Below are positions 4,601-27,802 of a stretch of 39,434 nt of DNA, one piece after another. This DNA is from Candidatus Nanoarchaeia archaeon (lineage in GTDB: Archaea > Nanobdellota > Nanobdellia > JAQUSD01), in assembly GCA_028715295.1 (NCBI GenBank), contig JAQUSD010000005.1:1-39434 (forward strand), given 5' to 3'. The translations under genes were made by a program, and so were the position numbers. The notes under the pieces are model-generated. The model did no database searches and had not been told where the DNA came from. It worked only from the letters and a program-made list of their open reading frames with translations. Numbering within the stretch: the stretch's first letter is position 1; each line of letters begins with the position of its first letter.

Positions 4601-6772
4601 CTAAATCTTTTTATACTTCAGCAGAAGAGAATTTGTTACAACGCTTACTGAACTCATAGCCATTGCTCCTGCAGCAATCATGGGATTTAACAGCCATCCT
4701 GTTGCAAAATAAAACACGCCCGCAGCAACAGGGATTCCGATTATGTTATAAATTAAAGCCCAGAACATATTCTGCTTTATCTTATCCATTGTTGATTTGC
4801 TTAACTTTATTGCTCGTGGAACATCCATCAAGTCATTTTTCATCAGCACAATATCCCCAGTTTCTATTGCAACATCTGTTCCAGAACCCATTGCAATACC
4901 CACATCAGATTGTGCAATTGCAGGCGCATCATTAATGCCATCCCCCACCATTGCAACTTTTCCTTTTTTCTGTAGCTTTTTAACATAGAGTTCCTTGTCT
5001 TCAGGAAGAACTTCTGCAAAGAAATTGTTTATTCCTGTTTTTTCAGCAATTGCTTTTGCAGTTATTTTGTTGTCACCTGTAATCATATACACTTCAATGT
5101 TCATGTCTTTTAATTTCTTAATTGCTTCAGGCGAACTTTCCTTTATTGTATCCGCAACACCAATGACGCCAATGAGTTTTTTATTTTCTGCTATGAACAT
5201 CACTGTTTTACCTTCTCTTTCGAGCAGTTCAGCTTGTTTCTTTTCAGATAACTTCACATGATGTTTTTCCATTAGTTTAAGATTTCCTGCTAAATAGGAC
5301 TTTCTGTTGATTTTTGCTTCAATACCCTGCCCTGGAACAGCCTTAAAATGCGAAGCTCTTGAGAGTTTCACCCCCCCGGCCTTTCTTACAATTGCTTCTG
5401 CAAGAGGATGTTCAGAATTCTTCTCAATGCTCGCTGCTATGCAGAGAACGTAATTTTTCTTTTTTTTGTTTAAAGGTATAATATCAGTTACCTCAGGCTT
5501 TCCTTTTGTTATTGTTCCTGTTTTGTCGAGAATGATATATTTTATTTTATGTGCTGTTTCAAGTGATTCCCCTCCCCTGATTAATATCCCGTTCTGAGCA
5601 CCTTTTCCTGTTCCAACCATTATCGCAGTGGGGGTAGCCAACCCAAGGGCACACGGGCATGCAATTACCAAAACCGCAACAGCCACTATTATACTGAATG
5701 AAAGGCTTGCATTAAAAACAAACTGCCAGATAAGAAAGGTACTTAATGCAATTATAACCACTGCAGGAACAAAATATGATGAAACCTTGTCTGCAAATCT
5801 CTGTATTGGTGCTTTTGACAACTGAGCATCTTCTATTAATTTGATTATTCTTGCAAGTGTTGTTTCAGCACCCACCTTTGTTGCTTTGAATCTTATAAAT
5901 CCATTTTTATTTATTGTTCCTCCAATAACATAGTCTTCTTTTTTCTTTTCAACAGGAATGCTTTCCCCAGTTACCATACTTTCATCTATTGATGTTAACC
6001 CGCTTATTATCTTTCCATCAACAGGAACTTTTTCTCCAGGTTTTACAATTACAATATCTCCCTTTTTAACTTCATCAACAGTGATTCTAATCTCTTTTCC
6101 GTTTCTTATCACCATGGCCTTTTTTGCCCCAAGCATAAGAAGTTTCTTTATTGCTTCCGAAGTTTTTCCTTTTGCAATTTCTTCTAAGTATTCACCCAGC
6201 ATTACCAATGTAATCAGAACGGCAGATATTTCAAAATACTGGCTTTCCATGAGATTGAACAAAACCACATAGACACTGTAAAAATAAGCTGCGCTTGTTC
6301 CTATTGCAATTAAGGTTTCCATATTCGAGCTTTTATTCTTTAATGCAACCCACGCACCCTTATAGAACCTCATGCCAACATAGAACTGTATTGGGGTTGC
6401 AAGAGCCCATAAAATATACTCCATATAAGGTATATTTACATCCATAAAGAACATGCTTAAAATAAATATTGGAACTGCAAAAATAATACTGAATATTAAC
6501 TTGTTCCTCATACTCTTGAGTTCTTTCTTCTTTTTTTCTTCCTCTATTTCAAGCGATTTTGTGACAGAAGCATTGTATCCCATCTCCTGTATTATATCAA
6601 TTATCTTTTCAGAGCTGATTTCTTTGGGGTTGAATTCAACAGCAGCTTTTTCAGTTGCAAAATTAACATTGACTGATTTGATTCCGCTTGTTTTGCTTAA
6701 TGTTTTTGAGATAAGCGTTACACAGCTCTGGCAGTGCATTTTGTCTATTGTAAGATTGATCTTTTCAGTCAT
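4601..6772 (-). CDS. copA: Cu+-exporting P1B-type ATPase with N-terminal HMA domain
   Basis: MHCQSC HMA motif, TGES, CPCALGLATP, DKTGTITKGKPEV, GDGINDAPAIAQSDVGIAMG. Confidence 0.97.
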   Translation of the reverse strand: MTEKINLTIDKMHCQSCVTLISKTLSKTSGIKSVNVNFATEKAAVEFNPKEISSEKIIDIIQEMGYNASVTKSLEIEEEKKKKELKSMRNKLIFSIIFAVPIFILSMFFMDVNIPYMEYILWALATPIQFYVGMRFYKGAWVALKNKSSNMETLIAIGTSAAYFYSVYVVLFNLMESQYFEISAVLITLVMLGEYLEEIAKGKTSEAIKKLLMLGAKKAMVIRNGKEIRITVDEVKKGDIVIVKPGEKVPVDGKIISGLTSIDESMVTGESIPVEKKKEDYVIGGTINKNGFIRFKATKVGAETTLARIIKLIEDAQLSKAPIQRFADKVSSYFVPAVVIIALSTFLIWQFVFNASLSFSIIVAVAVLVIACPCALGLATPTAIMVGTGKGAQNGILIRGGESLETAHKIKYIILDKTGTITKGKPEVTDIIPLNKKKKNYVLCIAASIEKNSEHPLAEAIVRKAGGVKLSRASHFKAVPGQGIEAKINRKSYLAGNLKLMEKHHVKLSEKKQAELLEREGKTVMFIAENKKLIGVIGVADTIKESSPEAIKKLKDMNIEVYMITGDNKITAKAIAEKTGINNFFAEVLPEDKELYVKKLQKKGKVAMVGDGINDAPAIAQSDVGIAMGSGTDVAIETGDIVLMKNDLMDVPRAIKLSKSTMDKIKQNMFWALIYNIIGIPVAAGVFYFATGWLLNPMIAAGAMAMSSVSVVTNSLLLKYKKI

Positions 6773-6815
6773 TTTTCATATCTCCTTAATTTTTCAGTGC
6801 TTATTTAATTTATCA

Positions 6816-8309
6816 TTAACCAGAACATCCGCAAGTGCTTGTTCCGCATGCCCCCCCATAGCTTCCCTGCTTTGGCTGGGGGGCAGATGCAAGTTCTTTC
6901 TGAACCACTTCCTGGTTGGATAAATCCATATTATCCGTTATAATGAACGTTCCCGGTATCATACCCATCCAGCAGCTCCAAGGGATAATCCCGCTTTGAG
7001 TGGGGGTAAATTCAATAGTTTGTTCTCCGGTTTTTATGCTAAAATGCAGTCCAAGTTTAGGAACCTGTATTGCATTATTGCATCCATTGATTTCCTTTCC
7101 GTTTATTATCCACCTGATAGGAACGCCTGTTTTAAGCACAAACTTGTCAGGACTCCAGCCGTATCTTGTCACATCCATTCTTATTTCCTGATAACCATCA
7201 CTGGAAAGAGATACGGAATCAACAGCAGAACTATCTCCTGTTAATGTATTTGCATTTATTGCAGTTGCTATGCTCTGTATATCATAACCTGTTCCTGTTA
7301 ATGCAAGCCCGTTGTTGAGCATTATTAACCCAAGCACTATAACAATAACGCCTGAAAATTTCAGAATCTCATGGGTTAATTTTGAGGAGATTGCTCCTGT
7401 TATATAACCAAAGCCTAACATTGCAGGCAGAGTTCCCAGCGCAAAAAAGAACAGCATTTTTCCACCTTCAACAGCACTGCCAGTTCCTGCAGCCATAACA
7501 TACATTGCCTGAAGAGGGCCACATGCAAGCATCAGTCCATTAAGCAGTCCAATTACAAGAGGACTTGAGCTTTTTCCTCTTTGCTTGTTTACAAATCTTT
7601 CAAGAAACTTTGGAGTTGGTATTCTTATTCTTCTTAGTACAGGGATGATGTTAAGCATATTGATTCCATATACTAAAAGGAATATACCAGCAATTATTCC
7701 TGCAATTCCACGCATTAAAGGGGTAAATGTTATTGCAGAACCTATTAAACCAAACACAGCACCCATTAAAGTGTAGGAGATTAATTTACCTCCCGCATAT
7801 TTCAAATGTGAAATATTTGATTTTTTACCTTCTTTTGTGTCTTTTGCAGTATATGAAATAACAAACCCACCGCACATACCCACACAGTGAAGTCCGGTTA
7901 TAAATCCTGTAAGGAAAAGAAGTCCATAACTTGTATTTTTGTCAAGCACAGGCAATTCAACAGATTCACTTAGATTCAAAATGAAATAAATGAAAACAAG
8001 AGCTCCTATTGTCAGGAATATGTAACCAAAAAGTTTTTTTTTGGACAATTTAAGTGCATGCTTGGATTTTTCAGGCAGAATGGTTTCAGCATCACTTCTT
8101 GTTGTGGAGCATATGTATCCTTTTTCCTCTATTTTTGAAAGTATTTTTTCAATGCTTGTCCTGTGTTCATCATATACTACTTTTCCTTTTTGGGTTGCAT
8201 AATCAATCCAGCAGTCCTTAACACCTTCAATTCCAATCGCTGTGCTTCTTATCAGTTTTTCACAACTGTGGCAAGTCATGCCTTCTGCTTTGAATTCTAA
8301 TGTTTTCAT
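6816..8309 (-). CDS. HMA - SafE/TauE-like (UreH domain) transmembrane - cupredoxin-like fusion with Cys-rich C-terminus; copper handling
   Basis: N-term GMTCHSC HMA; GFITGLHCVGMCGGFVISY SafE motif; C-terminal GYSPDKF-like cupredoxin region (TRYGWSPDKFVLKTGVPIRWIING...SCWMGMIPGTFIITD); tail CGTSTCGCSG. Confidence 0.85.
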   Translation of the reverse strand: MKTLEFKAEGMTCHSCEKLIRSTAIGIEGVKDCWIDYATQKGKVVYDEHRTSIEKILSKIEEKGYICSTTRSDAETILPEKSKHALKLSKKKLFGYIFLTIGALVFIYFILNLSESVELPVLDKNTSYGLLFLTGFITGLHCVGMCGGFVISYTAKDTKEGKKSNISHLKYAGGKLISYTLMGAVFGLIGSAITFTPLMRGIAGIIAGIFLLVYGINMLNIIPVLRRIRIPTPKFLERFVNKQRGKSSSPLVIGLLNGLMLACGPLQAMYVMAAGTGSAVEGGKMLFFFALGTLPAMLGFGYITGAISSKLTHEILKFSGVIVIVLGLIMLNNGLALTGTGYDIQSIATAINANTLTGDSSAVDSVSLSSDGYQEIRMDVTRYGWSPDKFVLKTGVPIRWIINGKEINGCNNAIQVPKLGLHFSIKTGEQTIEFTPTQSGIIPWSCWMGMIPGTFIITDNMDLSNQEVVQKELASAPQPKQGSYGGACGTSTCGCSG

Positions 8310-8349
8310 TGAGCATTTCTGAAAATGAAACGCCTTATAAGAAATTGTT

Positions 8350-8375
8350 TGAAACTAGTTTCAGTGAAATTTCAC
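8350..8375. promoter_or_regulatory. Tandem perfect palindromes TGAAACTAGTTTCA and GTGAAATTTCAC, candidate operator of copper operon
   Basis: Two abutting perfect palindromes (8350-8363; 8364-8375) sharing a TGAAA half-site, upstream of a minus-strand TATA-like CTTATAAG (~8333-8341) and the start at 8309. Confidence 0.6.
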
Positions 8376-8857
8376 TTATTTTTGAGTATGACAACATTTG
8401 TCATGCCCCTTCTTTTTCTTTCAATAATCCCTTTTCCTTCAAGTTTGTCAAGAACTCTTGTCACTTTTACTTTGTTCATGTTTGTTTTCTCACTTAAATC
8501 TGACTGGAATATTGTCCCTTTGTCTTCTATTATTGCTTCAAGAACCTTTTTCCCTTCTTCGTCAAGCTCTTTCATAACCTCTTCGTAGCTCTTTTTTGAA
8601 ACCTCAATTTTGATTTGTTCAGGTTTTTTATCCTTTACAAAGAAAATTATGTACATACCTACAAGTATTATACCTGTCATTATTGAAAGGCTTACATTTG
8701 TCTGAAATGTTATTGTTCCCCACATAGGACAGGAGGTTCCGTGCTCGCATGAGGTGCTGACTATTTCTGTTAGAGCCAGATTGAACGAGTAGGTGATATA
8801 CCCTACAAGTGCGGATATCCCTATTATCAAAAAGCCTACTTGTCTGCTGTTCATCAT
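8372..8857 (-). CDS. membrane-anchored winged-helix (MarR-like) regulator, putative metal-responsive
   Basis: Two N-terminal TM segments flanking an exposed STSCEHGTSCPMWG loop, then wHTH (FQSDLSEKTNMNKVKVTRVLDKLEGKGIIERKRRGMTNVVIL). Confidence 0.8.
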   Translation of the reverse strand: MMNSRQVGFLIIGISALVGYITYSFNLALTEIVSTSCEHGTSCPMWGTITFQTNVSLSIMTGIILVGMYIIFFVKDKKPEQIKIEVSKKSYEEVMKELDEEGKKVLEAIIEDKGTIFQSDLSEKTNMNKVKVTRVLDKLEGKGIIERKRRGMTNVVILKNK

Positions 8858-8900: not shown

Positions 8901-8914
8901 TAAATTTTATAAAT
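8901..8914 (+). promoter_or_regulatory. TATA box for leader ORF / tRNA-Cys-cysS-cysK transcript
   Basis: taaattttataaat, centred ~28 nt upstream of ATG at 8937, as expected for an archaeal leaderless start. Confidence 0.6.
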
Positions 8915-8936
8915 CATCATTTGCACCTTTTCAAGT

Positions 8937-8978
8937 ATGAACTCTGCTACAACAAACGAATGTTGCTGTTGTTGTTAG
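8937..8978 (+). CDS. putative cysteine leader peptide MNSATTNECCCCC*
   Basis: ATG AAC TCT GCT ACA ACA AAC GAA TGT TGC TGT TGT TGT TAG, read directly; upstream of tRNA-Cys and cysS-cysK. Confidence 0.65.
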   Translation: MNSATTNECCCCC

Positions 8979-8981
8979 TAG

Positions 8982-9027
8982 AGGCAATACTCTTCTATTG
9001 CCTTCAATTACAAGCTAGATAGAAGAG
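8982..9027 (+). promoter_or_regulatory. candidate attenuator: alternative RNA hairpins between leader ORF and tRNA-Cys
   Basis: Hairpin B: AGGCAATA(8982-8989)/TATTGCCT(8996-9003), 6-nt loop. Competing helix C: CTCTTCTAT(8990-8998)/ATAGAAGAG(9019-9027). B and C share nucleotides. Confidence 0.55.
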
Positions 9028-9032
9028 GACAT

Positions 9033-9103
9033 GGAGAGGTGTCAGAACGGTTATGTGACCGGCTGCAACCCGGTTTAAGTGGGTTCAACTCCCACCCTCT
9101 CCT
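9033..9103 (+). tRNA. tRNA-Cys (anticodon GCA)
   Basis: GGAGAGG...ACCGG-CTGCAAC-CCGGT...GTGGGTTCAACTCCCAC-CCTCTCC-T cloverleaf. Confidence 0.95.
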
Positions 9104-9111
9104 TAACGACT

Positions 9112-10515
9112 ATGAAGCTTTATAACACGCTGACAAGAAAAAAACAGGAATTTAAGCCGGTTAAAGGGAATAATGTCAGTATTTACTCGTGCGGTCCGAC
9201 TGTTTATGGTTTGCCTCATATTGGGAATTATCTTAGTTTTTTCAGAGCTGATATCCTAAAAAGGTGGCTTGAATTTCGCGGTTACAAAGTTAAGCATGTG
9301 ATGAATGTTACTGATATTGATGATAAAACAATAAGAGACAGCAAGAAAGAGGGACTTTCACTAAAAGAATTTACCCAAAAATATGAAAAAGAATTTCTAA
9401 AAGGGCTTGAAAATCTTAATATTAAGAAGGCGAGCATTTACCCAAGAGCAACTGAAAATGTTCCTGAGATGATTGAGTTAATAAAAAAACTGCTTAAGAA
9501 AGGCATTGCTTACATTACTGAAGACGGGATTTATTTCAGCATTTCCAAGTTTAAGGACTACGGAAAACTTTCAAAGCTAAACAAGAAAGGAATTAAATCA
9601 GGGGCAAGGGTTAATGTTGATGAATACTCTAAAGAAAACCCGCAGGACTTTGCTTTGTGGAAATTCAGCACAAAAGATGAGATTGAAAGAAAAATTTATT
9701 TTGAAACACCCTGGGGCAAGGGACGTCCTGGATGGCATATTGAATGTTCAGCAATGGGTATGAAATACCTTGGGGAAAGCTTTGATATCCACACTGGTGG
9801 CGTTGATTTAATATTCCCTCATCATGAAAATGAAATTGCACAGAGTCAGGGTGCAACTGAAAAAAAATTCGTTAAGTATTGGGTGCATAATAATCATTTA
9901 ACAATGAATAAAAAGAAAATGTCAAAAAGCCAGGGAAACTATTTTACCCTTATTGATTTGCTTGAAAAATACAGTGCTGATACAATAAGATACTTCTTTC
10001 TCCAGAGCCATTACAGGGATAAAACAGATTACAGCGAGGAAAGCATAAAGATTGCTGAAGCAGGAGTTAAAAGACTTAGCACTGTTCTTCAGAATGCTGA
10101 TAATACCAAACCTCTTGTTAAAAAATCTGTTAAAGATGACATTTTTGTTAAAAAAGTTGAAAAACTGAAAAAAGAATTCATAAAAGCAATGGATGATGAT
10201 TTGAATACCCCTCTTGCTTTGAGAACACTGCACAGTATTGCAAATGAAATCAGAAGTTATATTTCTGATAATCGGAATAAAACTGCTCTTTCAAAAACCC
10301 TGAAAGTTTACAAAGGACTTCTTGGTGTTTTTGGATTGTTTGAGAAACAGCAGGAAATTGATGAGAAGCTAATTAAAAAAATGATTAATGAGAGGGAAGA
10401 AGCAAGAAAGAAAAAAGATTACAAGACTGCTGATAGCATCAGAGACAAGCTTAAAGAAATGAAGATAGAAATCAGCGATACAAAAGAAGGGGTTGCATGG
10501 AGGATTATAAAATGA
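9112..10515 (+). CDS. cysS: cysteinyl-tRNA synthetase
   Basis: [71 protein letters not shown]. Start [14 protein letters not shown] preferred over the ORF-track start, which lies inside tRNA-Cys. Confidence 0.97.
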
Positions 10516-11411
10516 AGGCATGCAGAACAGTTCTTGATGCAATAGGCAACACTCCTTTAATCAGGATAAACCATCTTAATCCAAACAAAAATGTTATTAT
10601 GCTTGCAAAGTTTGAAGGCATGAATCCGACAGGCAGCATAAAAGACAGAATTGCTTTGAAAATGATTGAACAGGCTGAAAAAGAGGGAGTTCTTAAAAAA
10701 GGAAAAACAATTATTGAACCAACATCAGGAAACACAGGCATAGGGCTGGCCATGATAGGGTGTGTAAAAGGTTATGATGTTGAAATTGTAATGAGCGAAG
10801 CAGTTTCTGTTGAAAGAGTAAAAATGATAAAGGCTTTTGGTGCAAAAGTAACTCACACACCTGCAAAAGAGGGGACAGACGGAGCAATAAAAAAAGCACG
10901 GGAACTTGTAAAGGAAAATCCTGAAAAATATTTTATGCCAGACCAATTCTCAAATAAATACAACAAAATAGCTCATTATCATACGACTGCAAAGGAAATC
11001 TGGAAGCAAACCAAAGGAAAGGTTGACTATATAGTTTCAGCACTTGGGACTTCAGGAACAATAATGGGTATTGCAAGTTATTTAAAGAAAAAAAATCCAA
11101 ATATCAAGGTTGTATGTGCCCAGCCAGTAAAGGGGCATTATATACAGGGATTAAAAAATATGGAAGAAGCCCTTGTCCCTTCATTATTTGATGCTTCAAA
11201 AATTGATATTATGGAGATGGTTGATACTGAAGAAGCTTTTGAAACAGCAAGACAGATTGCAAAAAAAGAAGGGATATTTGCAGGTATGAGCAGCGGAGCA
11301 GCAATGCTTGCAGCAATAAAAGTTGCAAAAAGAATTGACAAAGGGAACATGGTTGTAATATTCCCTGACAGAGGGGAAAAATACCTAAGCACTGAATTGT
11401 TCAAGGTTTAA
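10512..11411 (+). CDS. cysK: cysteine synthase / O-acetylserine (or O-phosphoserine) sulfhydrylase family, PLP-dependent
   Basis: [68 protein letters not shown] overlap with cysS stop. Confidence 0.92.
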   Translation: MKACRTVLDAIGNTPLIRINHLNPNKNVIMLAKFEGMNPTGSIKDRIALKMIEQAEKEGVLKKGKTIIEPTSGNTGIGLAMIGCVKGYDVEIVMSEAVSVERVKMIKAFGAKVTHTPAKEGTDGAIKKARELVKENPEKYFMPDQFSNKYNKIAHYHTTAKEIWKQTKGKVDYIVSALGTSGTIMGIASYLKKKNPNIKVVCAQPVKGHYIQGLKNMEEALVPSLFDASKIDIMEMVDTEEAFETARQIAKKEGIFAGMSSGAAMLAAIKVAKRIDKGNMVVIFPDRGEKYLSTELFKV

Positions 11412-12047: not shown

Positions 12048-12575
12048 ATGCGTGAATTTAACCAGATGCTCAGCGCTGAAATCATAGCAGTTACTGGAGG
12101 AATCCTAGCAGGAGGAATTCTGGCATTTTACAAAGGTGTTATAACTGCTGTTCCAGGACTTCTTGTTTTCCTTCCAGGTTTTCTTCAGTTAAGAGGAGCT
12201 TTAAGCGGAGCATTGTCAGCAAGAGTAAGCACAGCACTGCATCTTGGCACTGTAAAGCATTTGAAAAATTCTCCTATTATAAGAGGCAACTTTACTGCAA
12301 CAGTTATTCTTACAGTTATAGCAAGTGTTCTTTTAAGTTTTTTTGCATACTTTATCAGTTCGCTTTTAGGTTATAGTGATGCAACAATTATATTTGTAGG
12401 GATTACTGCAGGAATTATATCCGGAGCATTAATGATACCTATTACCTTTTTTCTGTGTTTTTATGTTTACAAAAAAGGATTAGACCCTGATAATGTTATT
12501 GGACCTTATATCAGTACAATAGGCGATGTAGTTTGTATGGCTAGCCTGATACTTGCAGTGGTGATTATAGCATGA
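12048..12575 (+). CDS. MgtE/SLC41-like divalent cation transporter membrane domain (half 1)
   Basis: Hydrophobic; PGLLVFLPGFLQLRGALSGALSARVSTALHLG and KKGLDPDNVIGPYISTIGDVVCMASLI. Confidence 0.85.
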   Translation: MREFNQMLSAEIIAVTGGILAGGILAFYKGVITAVPGLLVFLPGFLQLRGALSGALSARVSTALHLGTVKHLKNSPIIRGNFTATVILTVIASVLLSFFAYFISSLLGYSDATIIFVGITAGIISGALMIPITFFLCFYVYKKGLDPDNVIGPYISTIGDVVCMASLILAVVIIA

Positions 12576-13120
12576 AACTGAGTGTAAAAATCATAAAAGA
12601 GAGTCTTGTTGCGCTTGTAATTGTTTCTCTCATAAGTTCTATTGGAGGAATCGGACTTCAGGCTGTTGAAGAAAATCTTCTTGTTCTTGCTCCTTTGATT
12701 ATTATTTTTCCTGCAATGAATAATATGCTTGGTGGGTTGGGTTGCATTGTTTCTTCAAAATTTACAACACTTCTTTATCTTGGTAAAATAAAACCAAAAA
12801 ACTGGAAGTCTTCAAAAGATATTAAACAAATGATGGCGAGAATAATTGCAGTCAGTGTTGTTTCAGCAGTTTATCTTGTTGTACTCGCTTTTTTAATAAG
12901 TGCAGAATTCAGCCTTGGAGTTTTTATCAAAGTTTTTTTAATGATTTTAATAATTACAGTTGTTGTAACCTTATCTGTTTCAATTATTGCTGTAATTGGA
13001 GGTTTGTATATACATAAGAAAAATATGGACCCTGATAATTTCTTAATTCCAATATCAACAGCAACAGCAGATATGCTCAGTCTTTTAATGTTTTCAGTTA
13101 TGATTATTGTTTTCTTTTGA
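12572..13120 (+). CDS. MgtE/SLC41-like divalent cation transporter membrane domain (half 2)
   Basis: IIIFPAMNNMLGGLGCIVSSKFTTLLYLG and KKNMDPDNFLIPISTATADMLSLLMF, paralogous to preceding gene; ATGA overlap. Confidence 0.85.
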   Translation: MKLSVKIIKESLVALVIVSLISSIGGIGLQAVEENLLVLAPLIIIFPAMNNMLGGLGCIVSSKFTTLLYLGKIKPKNWKSSKDIKQMMARIIAVSVVSAVYLVVLAFLISAEFSLGVFIKVFLMILIITVVVTLSVSIIAVIGGLYIHKKNMDPDNFLIPISTATADMLSLLMFSVMIIVFF

Positions 13121-27674: not shown

Positions 27675-27802
27675 TCCCGCTGGCCGGATTCGAACCAGCA
27701 ACCTCACGGTTACGGCTGATGGCATTTCACAGAAGGGCATGATATCCAAACCCCCTCCAGCCACATCTACAGCCGTGCGCTCTACCGTTGAGCTACAGCG
27801 GG
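27675..27802 (-). tRNA. tRNA-Tyr (anticodon GUA) with ~56-nt intron at position 37/38 (intron ~27711-27766)
   Basis: Exons CCCGCTGTAGCTCAACGGTAGAGCGCACGGCTGTAG + ACCGTGAGGTTGCTGGTTCGAATCCGGCCAGCGGG fold to a cloverleaf; intron end CAGCCG can pair with exon CGGCTG (BHB-type). Confidence 0.9.

Follow-up and report, generated by a model that had tools for sequence, protein, structure and literature searches.

A predicted leader-peptide attenuator ending in cysteine codons at the tRNA-Cys, cysS and cysK operon of an archaeon

A short open reading frame (ORF) that closes with a run of Cys codons stands between the promoter and the cysteine operon of an archaeon, and very probably serves as an attenuator of that operon. 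Judged from the sequences compared, the conserved unit is the promoter, the leader ORF with its Cys run adjoining the stop codon, and then the Cys operon, not the RNA helices found in the window (the whole 39,434-nt stretch of DNA analysed here). The proposal that a Cys leader controls the tRNA-Cys operon by way of a ribosome, which was part of the original prediction, is strongly supported by 27 comparative cases. Since the Cys codons form a run that ends the leader, a stalling ribosome probably senses cysteine shortage.

Organization of the locus

The host is an archaeon with a 777 kb assembly, whose small size points to DPANN, encoding deoxyhypusine synthase and a pyruvoyl arginine decarboxylase, and the nearest relatives found by genome comparison belong to the same class, none of them closer. 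The relevant features, all on the forward strand, are as follows.

8906..8913, +, TATA box TTTATAAA, 31 nt upstream of the leader ATG (sequence)
8937..8978, +, leader ORF MNSATTNECCCCC and stop, 13 codons, predicted leaderless (ORF call; 26 further leaders tabulated)
8961..8975, +, control codons, five Cys (TGT TGC TGT TGT TGT), adjoining the stop (sequence)
8985..8986, +, CA dinucleotide, +10 relative to the final Cys codon, candidate site for cleavage of single-stranded RNA (CA-position test)
8990..9009, +, weak match to the family post-stop element (CTCTTCTATTGCCTTCAATT; p=0.15 by the leave-out model, short of significance for the window by itself)
8942..8983, +, helix A (minimum-energy fold, 8942-8955 with 8967-8983; not kept in relatives)
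8982..9003, +, helix B, 8 bp without mismatch, engages the CA in pairing (a perfect helix of this length or more in 1.7% of shuffles)
8990..9027, +, helix C, 9 bp without mismatch, incompatible with B (a perfect helix of this length or more in 0.27% of shuffles)
9033..9103, +, tRNA-Cys (GCA) (ARAGORN; Rfam RF00005, 53.3 bits)
9112..10515, +, cysS, cysteinyl-tRNA synthetase (NCBIfam TIGR00435, 505.4 bits, cut-off 340)
10497..11411, +, cysK/cysM, cysteine synthase, overlapping cysS (NCBIfam TIGR01136, 380.2 bits, cut-off 344)

Genes for a heavy-metal P-type ATPase, an HMA-DsbD fusion and a MarR-like regulator (4601-8857, reverse strand) are divergent from the Cys operon, and just past cysK two adjacent MgtE half-proteins lie behind a TrkA_C protein (12048-13120, forward strand). 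An Rfam tRNA match elsewhere in the window extends over 128 nt (27675-27802, reverse strand) and was missed by plain ARAGORN, so that it is probably an intron-containing tRNA.

A family of Cys leaders

ORFs with at least three Cys codons were found upstream of cysS in 15 of 106 regions, compared with about 7 in shuffled sequences, so that the mere presence of Cys in an upstream ORF proves little, and in many genomes of the class the same scan of 106 regions found no such leader at cysS. One leader that stood out (MNKALNCECYSEECACACCS and stop, in G023) precedes tRNA-Cys and cysS. Tracing operons upstream revealed another (MFKALKCCGCNCSCSQCCCCK and stop, in G010) before tRNA-Cys, cysK and cysS, with further Cys leaders in G086, G233, G102 and G236. 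A context-blind search of 384 genomes for a pattern made up of TATA box, spacing, ATG and four Cys codons returned seven matches that were in frame, short and correctly spaced, six of them before tRNA-Cys, cysS, cysK or cysE. Wider searches brought the number of tabulated leaders to 27, belonging to about 17 families of one archaeal class (18 when the later G520 is included). All but one of these 27 head tRNA-Cys, cysS, cysK or cysE operons, 25 of them on their own contig; for the G536 leader the contig ends, and a second copy, on a different contig, is followed by cysK and cysS, while the G506 leader reaches a contig end. In 24 of the 27 a Cys codon immediately precedes the stop, and the run persists among relatives whose N-terminal leader residues vary freely.

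The distance from the TTTAWA motif to the ATG is regular. Among the matches listed, 93 untruncated ones were evaluated and yielded 27 in-frame CCC-stop ORFs, 19 of which have a spacing of 30-31 nt; in-frame ORFs among these also occur in G519, G389, G501 and G212, with a second one in G311. This spacing is approximately that between an archaeal TATA box and the transcription start site, so that the ATG probably lies at +1 and the leader mRNA is probably leaderless, with transcription starting on the ATG or immediately beside it.

As a class, these leaders are not chance ORFs. Although short ORFs with three or more Cys codons are expected fortuitously at the rate given above, chance does not account for 26 of the 27 tabulated leaders preceding Cys genes. 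By comparison, of 80 mostly bacterial CysRS loci only 1 has an ORF with a terminal CCC no more than 600 nt from cysS. Chance is also at odds with a control search for His runs, in which 4 of 17 matches were in frame and the one examined preceded a CBS-domain gene rather than a His gene, so that His-run leaders were rejected. Chance as the source of the window leader can be given negligible weight. Other candidates were also set aside, namely 'MDCACNCNYNC...' upstream of cysS in L018, which lies off-frame of a real small protein, and the Cys-rich or poly-Cys ORFs of L202, L234, L242, G150 and G503, which do not precede Cys genes and were treated as chance occurrences.

Some of the loci have features of separate interest. 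The leader-headed operon in G475 and G482 (L274, L321) holds a PIG-L/LmbE-type deacetylase together with cysS, a pairing that recalls low-molecular-weight thiol synthesis. In G102, one Cys leader (L264) precedes cysK followed by TusA-like and ThiI-like genes, and a second precedes cysS (L324). In L263 (G086) and L314 (G495) tRNA genes that seem to be interrupted by introns lie just after the leader stop and before cysK; ARAGORN assigns that of L263 to tRNA-Lys, although its anticodon is more likely GCA. In G050 (contig C145, 1573-3033) a reading frame for CysRS contains 15 TGA codons in frame, which probably marks that contig as a contaminant from an organism reading TGA as an amino acid.

A shared post-stop element and leaders for other amino acids

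Twelve core members have in common the element UAR-(A)AUUCUUKCAUUGUUUUAG, each reaching p<0.01 against a model built without it. The family post-stop motif scores 363 bits compared with 225±8 in shuffled tails, a figure inflated by sequence relatedness. Within this region the most constant feature examined is the position of a CA dinucleotide. Counted from the last control codon, it lies at +9 to +13 in all but two of 31 leaders (G404 and G520 have no CA in this stretch), that is 29, compared with 8.3±2.3 in dinucleotide shuffles that keep the number of CAs, none of 2000 reaching 29. The window has its CA at +10 (8985-8986), but the remainder of its match to the element is weak. Tracts of four U residues after the stop were no more frequent than composition predicts (22 of 27 leaders, 18.4 expected; none in the window), and the U-tract was accordingly discarded as evidence of termination.

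Searching for the post-stop element itself led to leaders with other codon runs. A Leu leader (MKTTILLLLL and stop; L341, reverse strand, 1025) directly precedes an archaeal leuS, of whose product the available 350 residues match archaeal LeuRS models, and a Trp leader (...SSLWTWC and stop; L327, forward strand, 417) directly precedes trpE, trpG and trpD, both being followed by the same element. MFMPHKEEIAVL and stop, located before an aminotransferase (L348, forward strand, 1524), has the element as well and is a weaker case, and MIDAICCR and stop in G520 precedes a tRNA, cysE and cysS. Matches to a Trp-run codon pattern were swamped by Gly codons. The codon run changes with the operon whereas the element does not, and this is the best evidence that the ribosomes reading the run are the sensor. 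Metals are bound by Cys runs in general, and the poly-Cys peptide might itself act in metal or thiol sensing, or a protein might bind the UGY repeats in the RNA; yet the free variation of the N-terminal residues beside a persistent run is unfavourable to a functional peptide, and Leu and Trp leaders bearing the same element before leuS and trpEGD would be left unexplained, making either version highly improbable.

RNA helices in the window

The letters and coordinates of the three helices in the original prediction all agree with the sequence. Helix A joins CTACAACAA (8947-8955) to TTGTTGTTAG (8969-8978), helix B joins AGGCAATA (8982-8989) to TATTGCCT (8996-9003) around a CTCTTC loop, and helix C joins CTCTTCTAT (8990-8998) to ATAGAAGAG (9019-9027), ending 5 nt short of the tRNA-Cys at 9033. 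In the minimum-energy fold helix A is longer than proposed, pairing 8942-8955 with 8967-8983, and positions 8982-8983 are common to A and B. The expected competition between B and C is borne out, since the two overlap and are thus mutually exclusive. The complementarity exceeds that of shuffled sequences. The fold of 8932-9032 has a z-score of -3.25, with 1 of 200 shuffles equally good, and the leader with its post-stop stretch reaches -3.85. Among dinucleotide shuffles of the post-stop stretch 1.7% contain a perfect helix of at least 8 bp and 0.27% one of at least 9 bp, and a B/C-like overlapping pair appeared in none of 3000. The free RNA is predicted to fold as A+C (-28.7 kcal/mol), with pairing probabilities of 0.999 for C and 0.0003 for B. 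A ribosome on the Cys codons had been expected to favour C, and this holds for the last Cys codons or the stop (C, -12.2), whereas after a stall on the first Cys codons the RNA is accessible from about 8974 onward and B is the favoured helix (-12.3).

These helices invite an explanation by classical hairpin attenuation, with C as a terminator or processing hairpin, because they are non-random and A+C versus B follows the logic of 1:2/3:4 versus 2:3 pairing. However, no U-run follows C, and the structure is not conserved in relatives, which makes this explanation improbable. The doubt already expressed about classical intrinsic termination was justified, for downstream of the leader stop the window has no more than 2 consecutive U residues and an intrinsic terminator hairpin with a U-run was not found there. 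Exclusive antiterminator and terminator helices are present in the window but not conserved, the mean structure z-score over 27 leaders being 0.01, with only the leaders of the window (G000) and of G010 (-2.05) below -2. A covariation-style permutation test of pairing between leader and tail was likewise negative (p=0.06 overall, 0.28 in the core set), and on this result a pairing of the leader 5' half with the post-stop element that appeared by eye to covary in G424, G506 and G311 was rejected. Thus, mutually exclusive helices are not supported as a general switch, compensatory conservation being absent in relatives. With no family-wide excess of structure and a negative permutation test, the system works without helices. 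Those of the window, non-random in this one genome, could be a local addition to the switch, and that they are functional is possible, though somewhat less likely than not.

Possible mechanism

We infer the course of regulation, including translation of the leader, stalling, the identity of FttA/aCPSF1 as the factor, termination rather than decay, and the regulatory direction. Transcription would begin at or next to the leader AUG, as the TATA spacing suggests. When Cys-tRNA is plentiful, the ribosome would complete the ORF and depart, exposing a single-stranded CA stretch about 10 nt past the Cys run, which would be cleaved by a factor, most likely FttA/aCPSF1, so that the transcript would end before tRNA-Cys, cysS and cysK. 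When Cys-tRNA is short, the ribosome would stall on the Cys codons and cover the CA stretch, and RNA polymerase would read on. With its A site on the last Cys codon, a ribosome would presumably cover roughly the next 10 nt, up to the CA, as estimated from ribosome footprints in general. Within the window, the A+C fold would, without a stalled ribosome, leave 8984-8989 (GCAATA, including the CA) as a single-stranded linker. Were the ribosome to stall early, on the first Cys codons, B could form and bury the CA in pairing; were it to stall late, on the last ones, C would persist and the CA would lie beneath or next to the ribosome, so that, hypothetically, all starved states would protect the CA.

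That the post-stop element is a site of termination or cleavage which the ribosome occludes is slightly more likely than not, and that FttA is the factor responsible we regard as about evenly balanced. FttA-dependent control had been named among the alternatives in the original prediction, and is the one that fits best. The genome of the window encodes aCPSF1 (TIGR03675, 899 bits, cut-off 580; G000, contig C25), and five relatives also score above the curated cut-off. In PMC4048286, where the Pyrococcus abyssi enzyme is cited, aCPSF1 is described as preferring and cleaving single-stranded CA. It also binds U-tracts (PMC8716108), and FttA cleaves nascent RNA near the polymerase; its steric exclusion by a ribosome has been hypothesised (PMC11616081).

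Alternatively, the Cys codons may control translation or RNA decay and leave transcription termination aside, the stalled ribosome either freeing the next ribosome-binding site, as in mycobacteria, or shielding the 5' end and the post-stop site from nuclease. The next ORF begins 48-75 nt past the leader stop in G233, G236, G102, G424 and G167, several having a Shine-Dalgarno sequence, and aCPSF1 also has endonuclease and 5'-3' exonuclease activity (PMC4048286), which would suit decay. Nevertheless, at least 8 loci have a tRNA as the gene next after the leader, so that hiding of a ribosome-binding site cannot be the general answer, and the 27 leaders have no excess structure in which a site could be hidden. 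Control of translation or decay thus keeps a real but minority share of the probability. Returning to cleavage at an occluded site, its extension to an archaea-wide, hairpin-free attenuation by amino acids, combining a leaderless mini-ORF (Cys, Leu, Trp, perhaps Ile/Val/Leu) with an FttA site at a fixed distance that the stalled ribosome covers, is about as likely to be right as wrong. If true, ribosome-stalling control arose separately in archaea, with an unrelated termination factor.

Comparison with known systems

Leader-peptide attenuation is a textbook bacterial mechanism. No report of an archaeal leader-peptide attenuator was found in a full-text search confined mostly to the open literature, which does not prove priority. 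Two marks of a ribosome-mediated attenuator in the broad sense are found here, namely a short leader ORF between promoter and operon, and control codons cognate to the downstream genes in the Cys, Leu and Trp cases. The cognate codons are shared with bacterial trp/his-type attenuators, as is the 1:2/3:4 versus 2:3 helix logic in the window; unlike these, the archaeal leaders have no intrinsic terminator, their helices are not conserved, and their control codons adjoin the stop. As with bacterial T-box leaders of aminoacyl-tRNA synthetase genes, amino-acid supply would control genes of tRNA charging, but neither the T-box nor any other Rfam family apart from tRNA was matched in the window and 18 leader loci, where only tRNAs reach gathering thresholds.

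The closest parallels lie in mycobacteria, whose cys operons were predicted to be preceded by leader ORFs that have a Cys run close to the stop, with no terminator conserved (PMC1262725), and whose polycysteine leaderless ORFs are attenuators according to Canestrari et al. 2020 (doi 10.1111/mmi.14498), as described in PMC9031893. In both systems a short ORF, probably leaderless in our case, stands ahead of cysteine genes and has its Cys codons close to the stop, and both do without a conserved terminator hairpin. The present leaders differ in their archaeal host and promoter, in tRNA-Cys often being the first gene, in the CA element at a fixed distance, in having no structure that sequesters the ribosome-binding site of the next gene, and in the existence of Leu and Trp versions with the same element. 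FttA/aCPSF1-dependent terminators (PMC8716108, PMC11616081, PMC10450193) resemble them in single-stranded CA, mostly U-rich RNA and an encoded factor. Known ones act at gene ends and operon-internal sites, whereas the site proposed here is controlled by a leader and, in the window, has no U4; no leader-controlled FttA/aCPSF1 site was found in the literature examined. The leaders would also mean that functional ORFs of 7-23 codons are missed by archaeal annotations, and they apparently represent a familiar principle in a new place, a leader-peptide attenuator that recurs in one archaeal class for at least Cys, Leu and Trp and operates free of hairpins.
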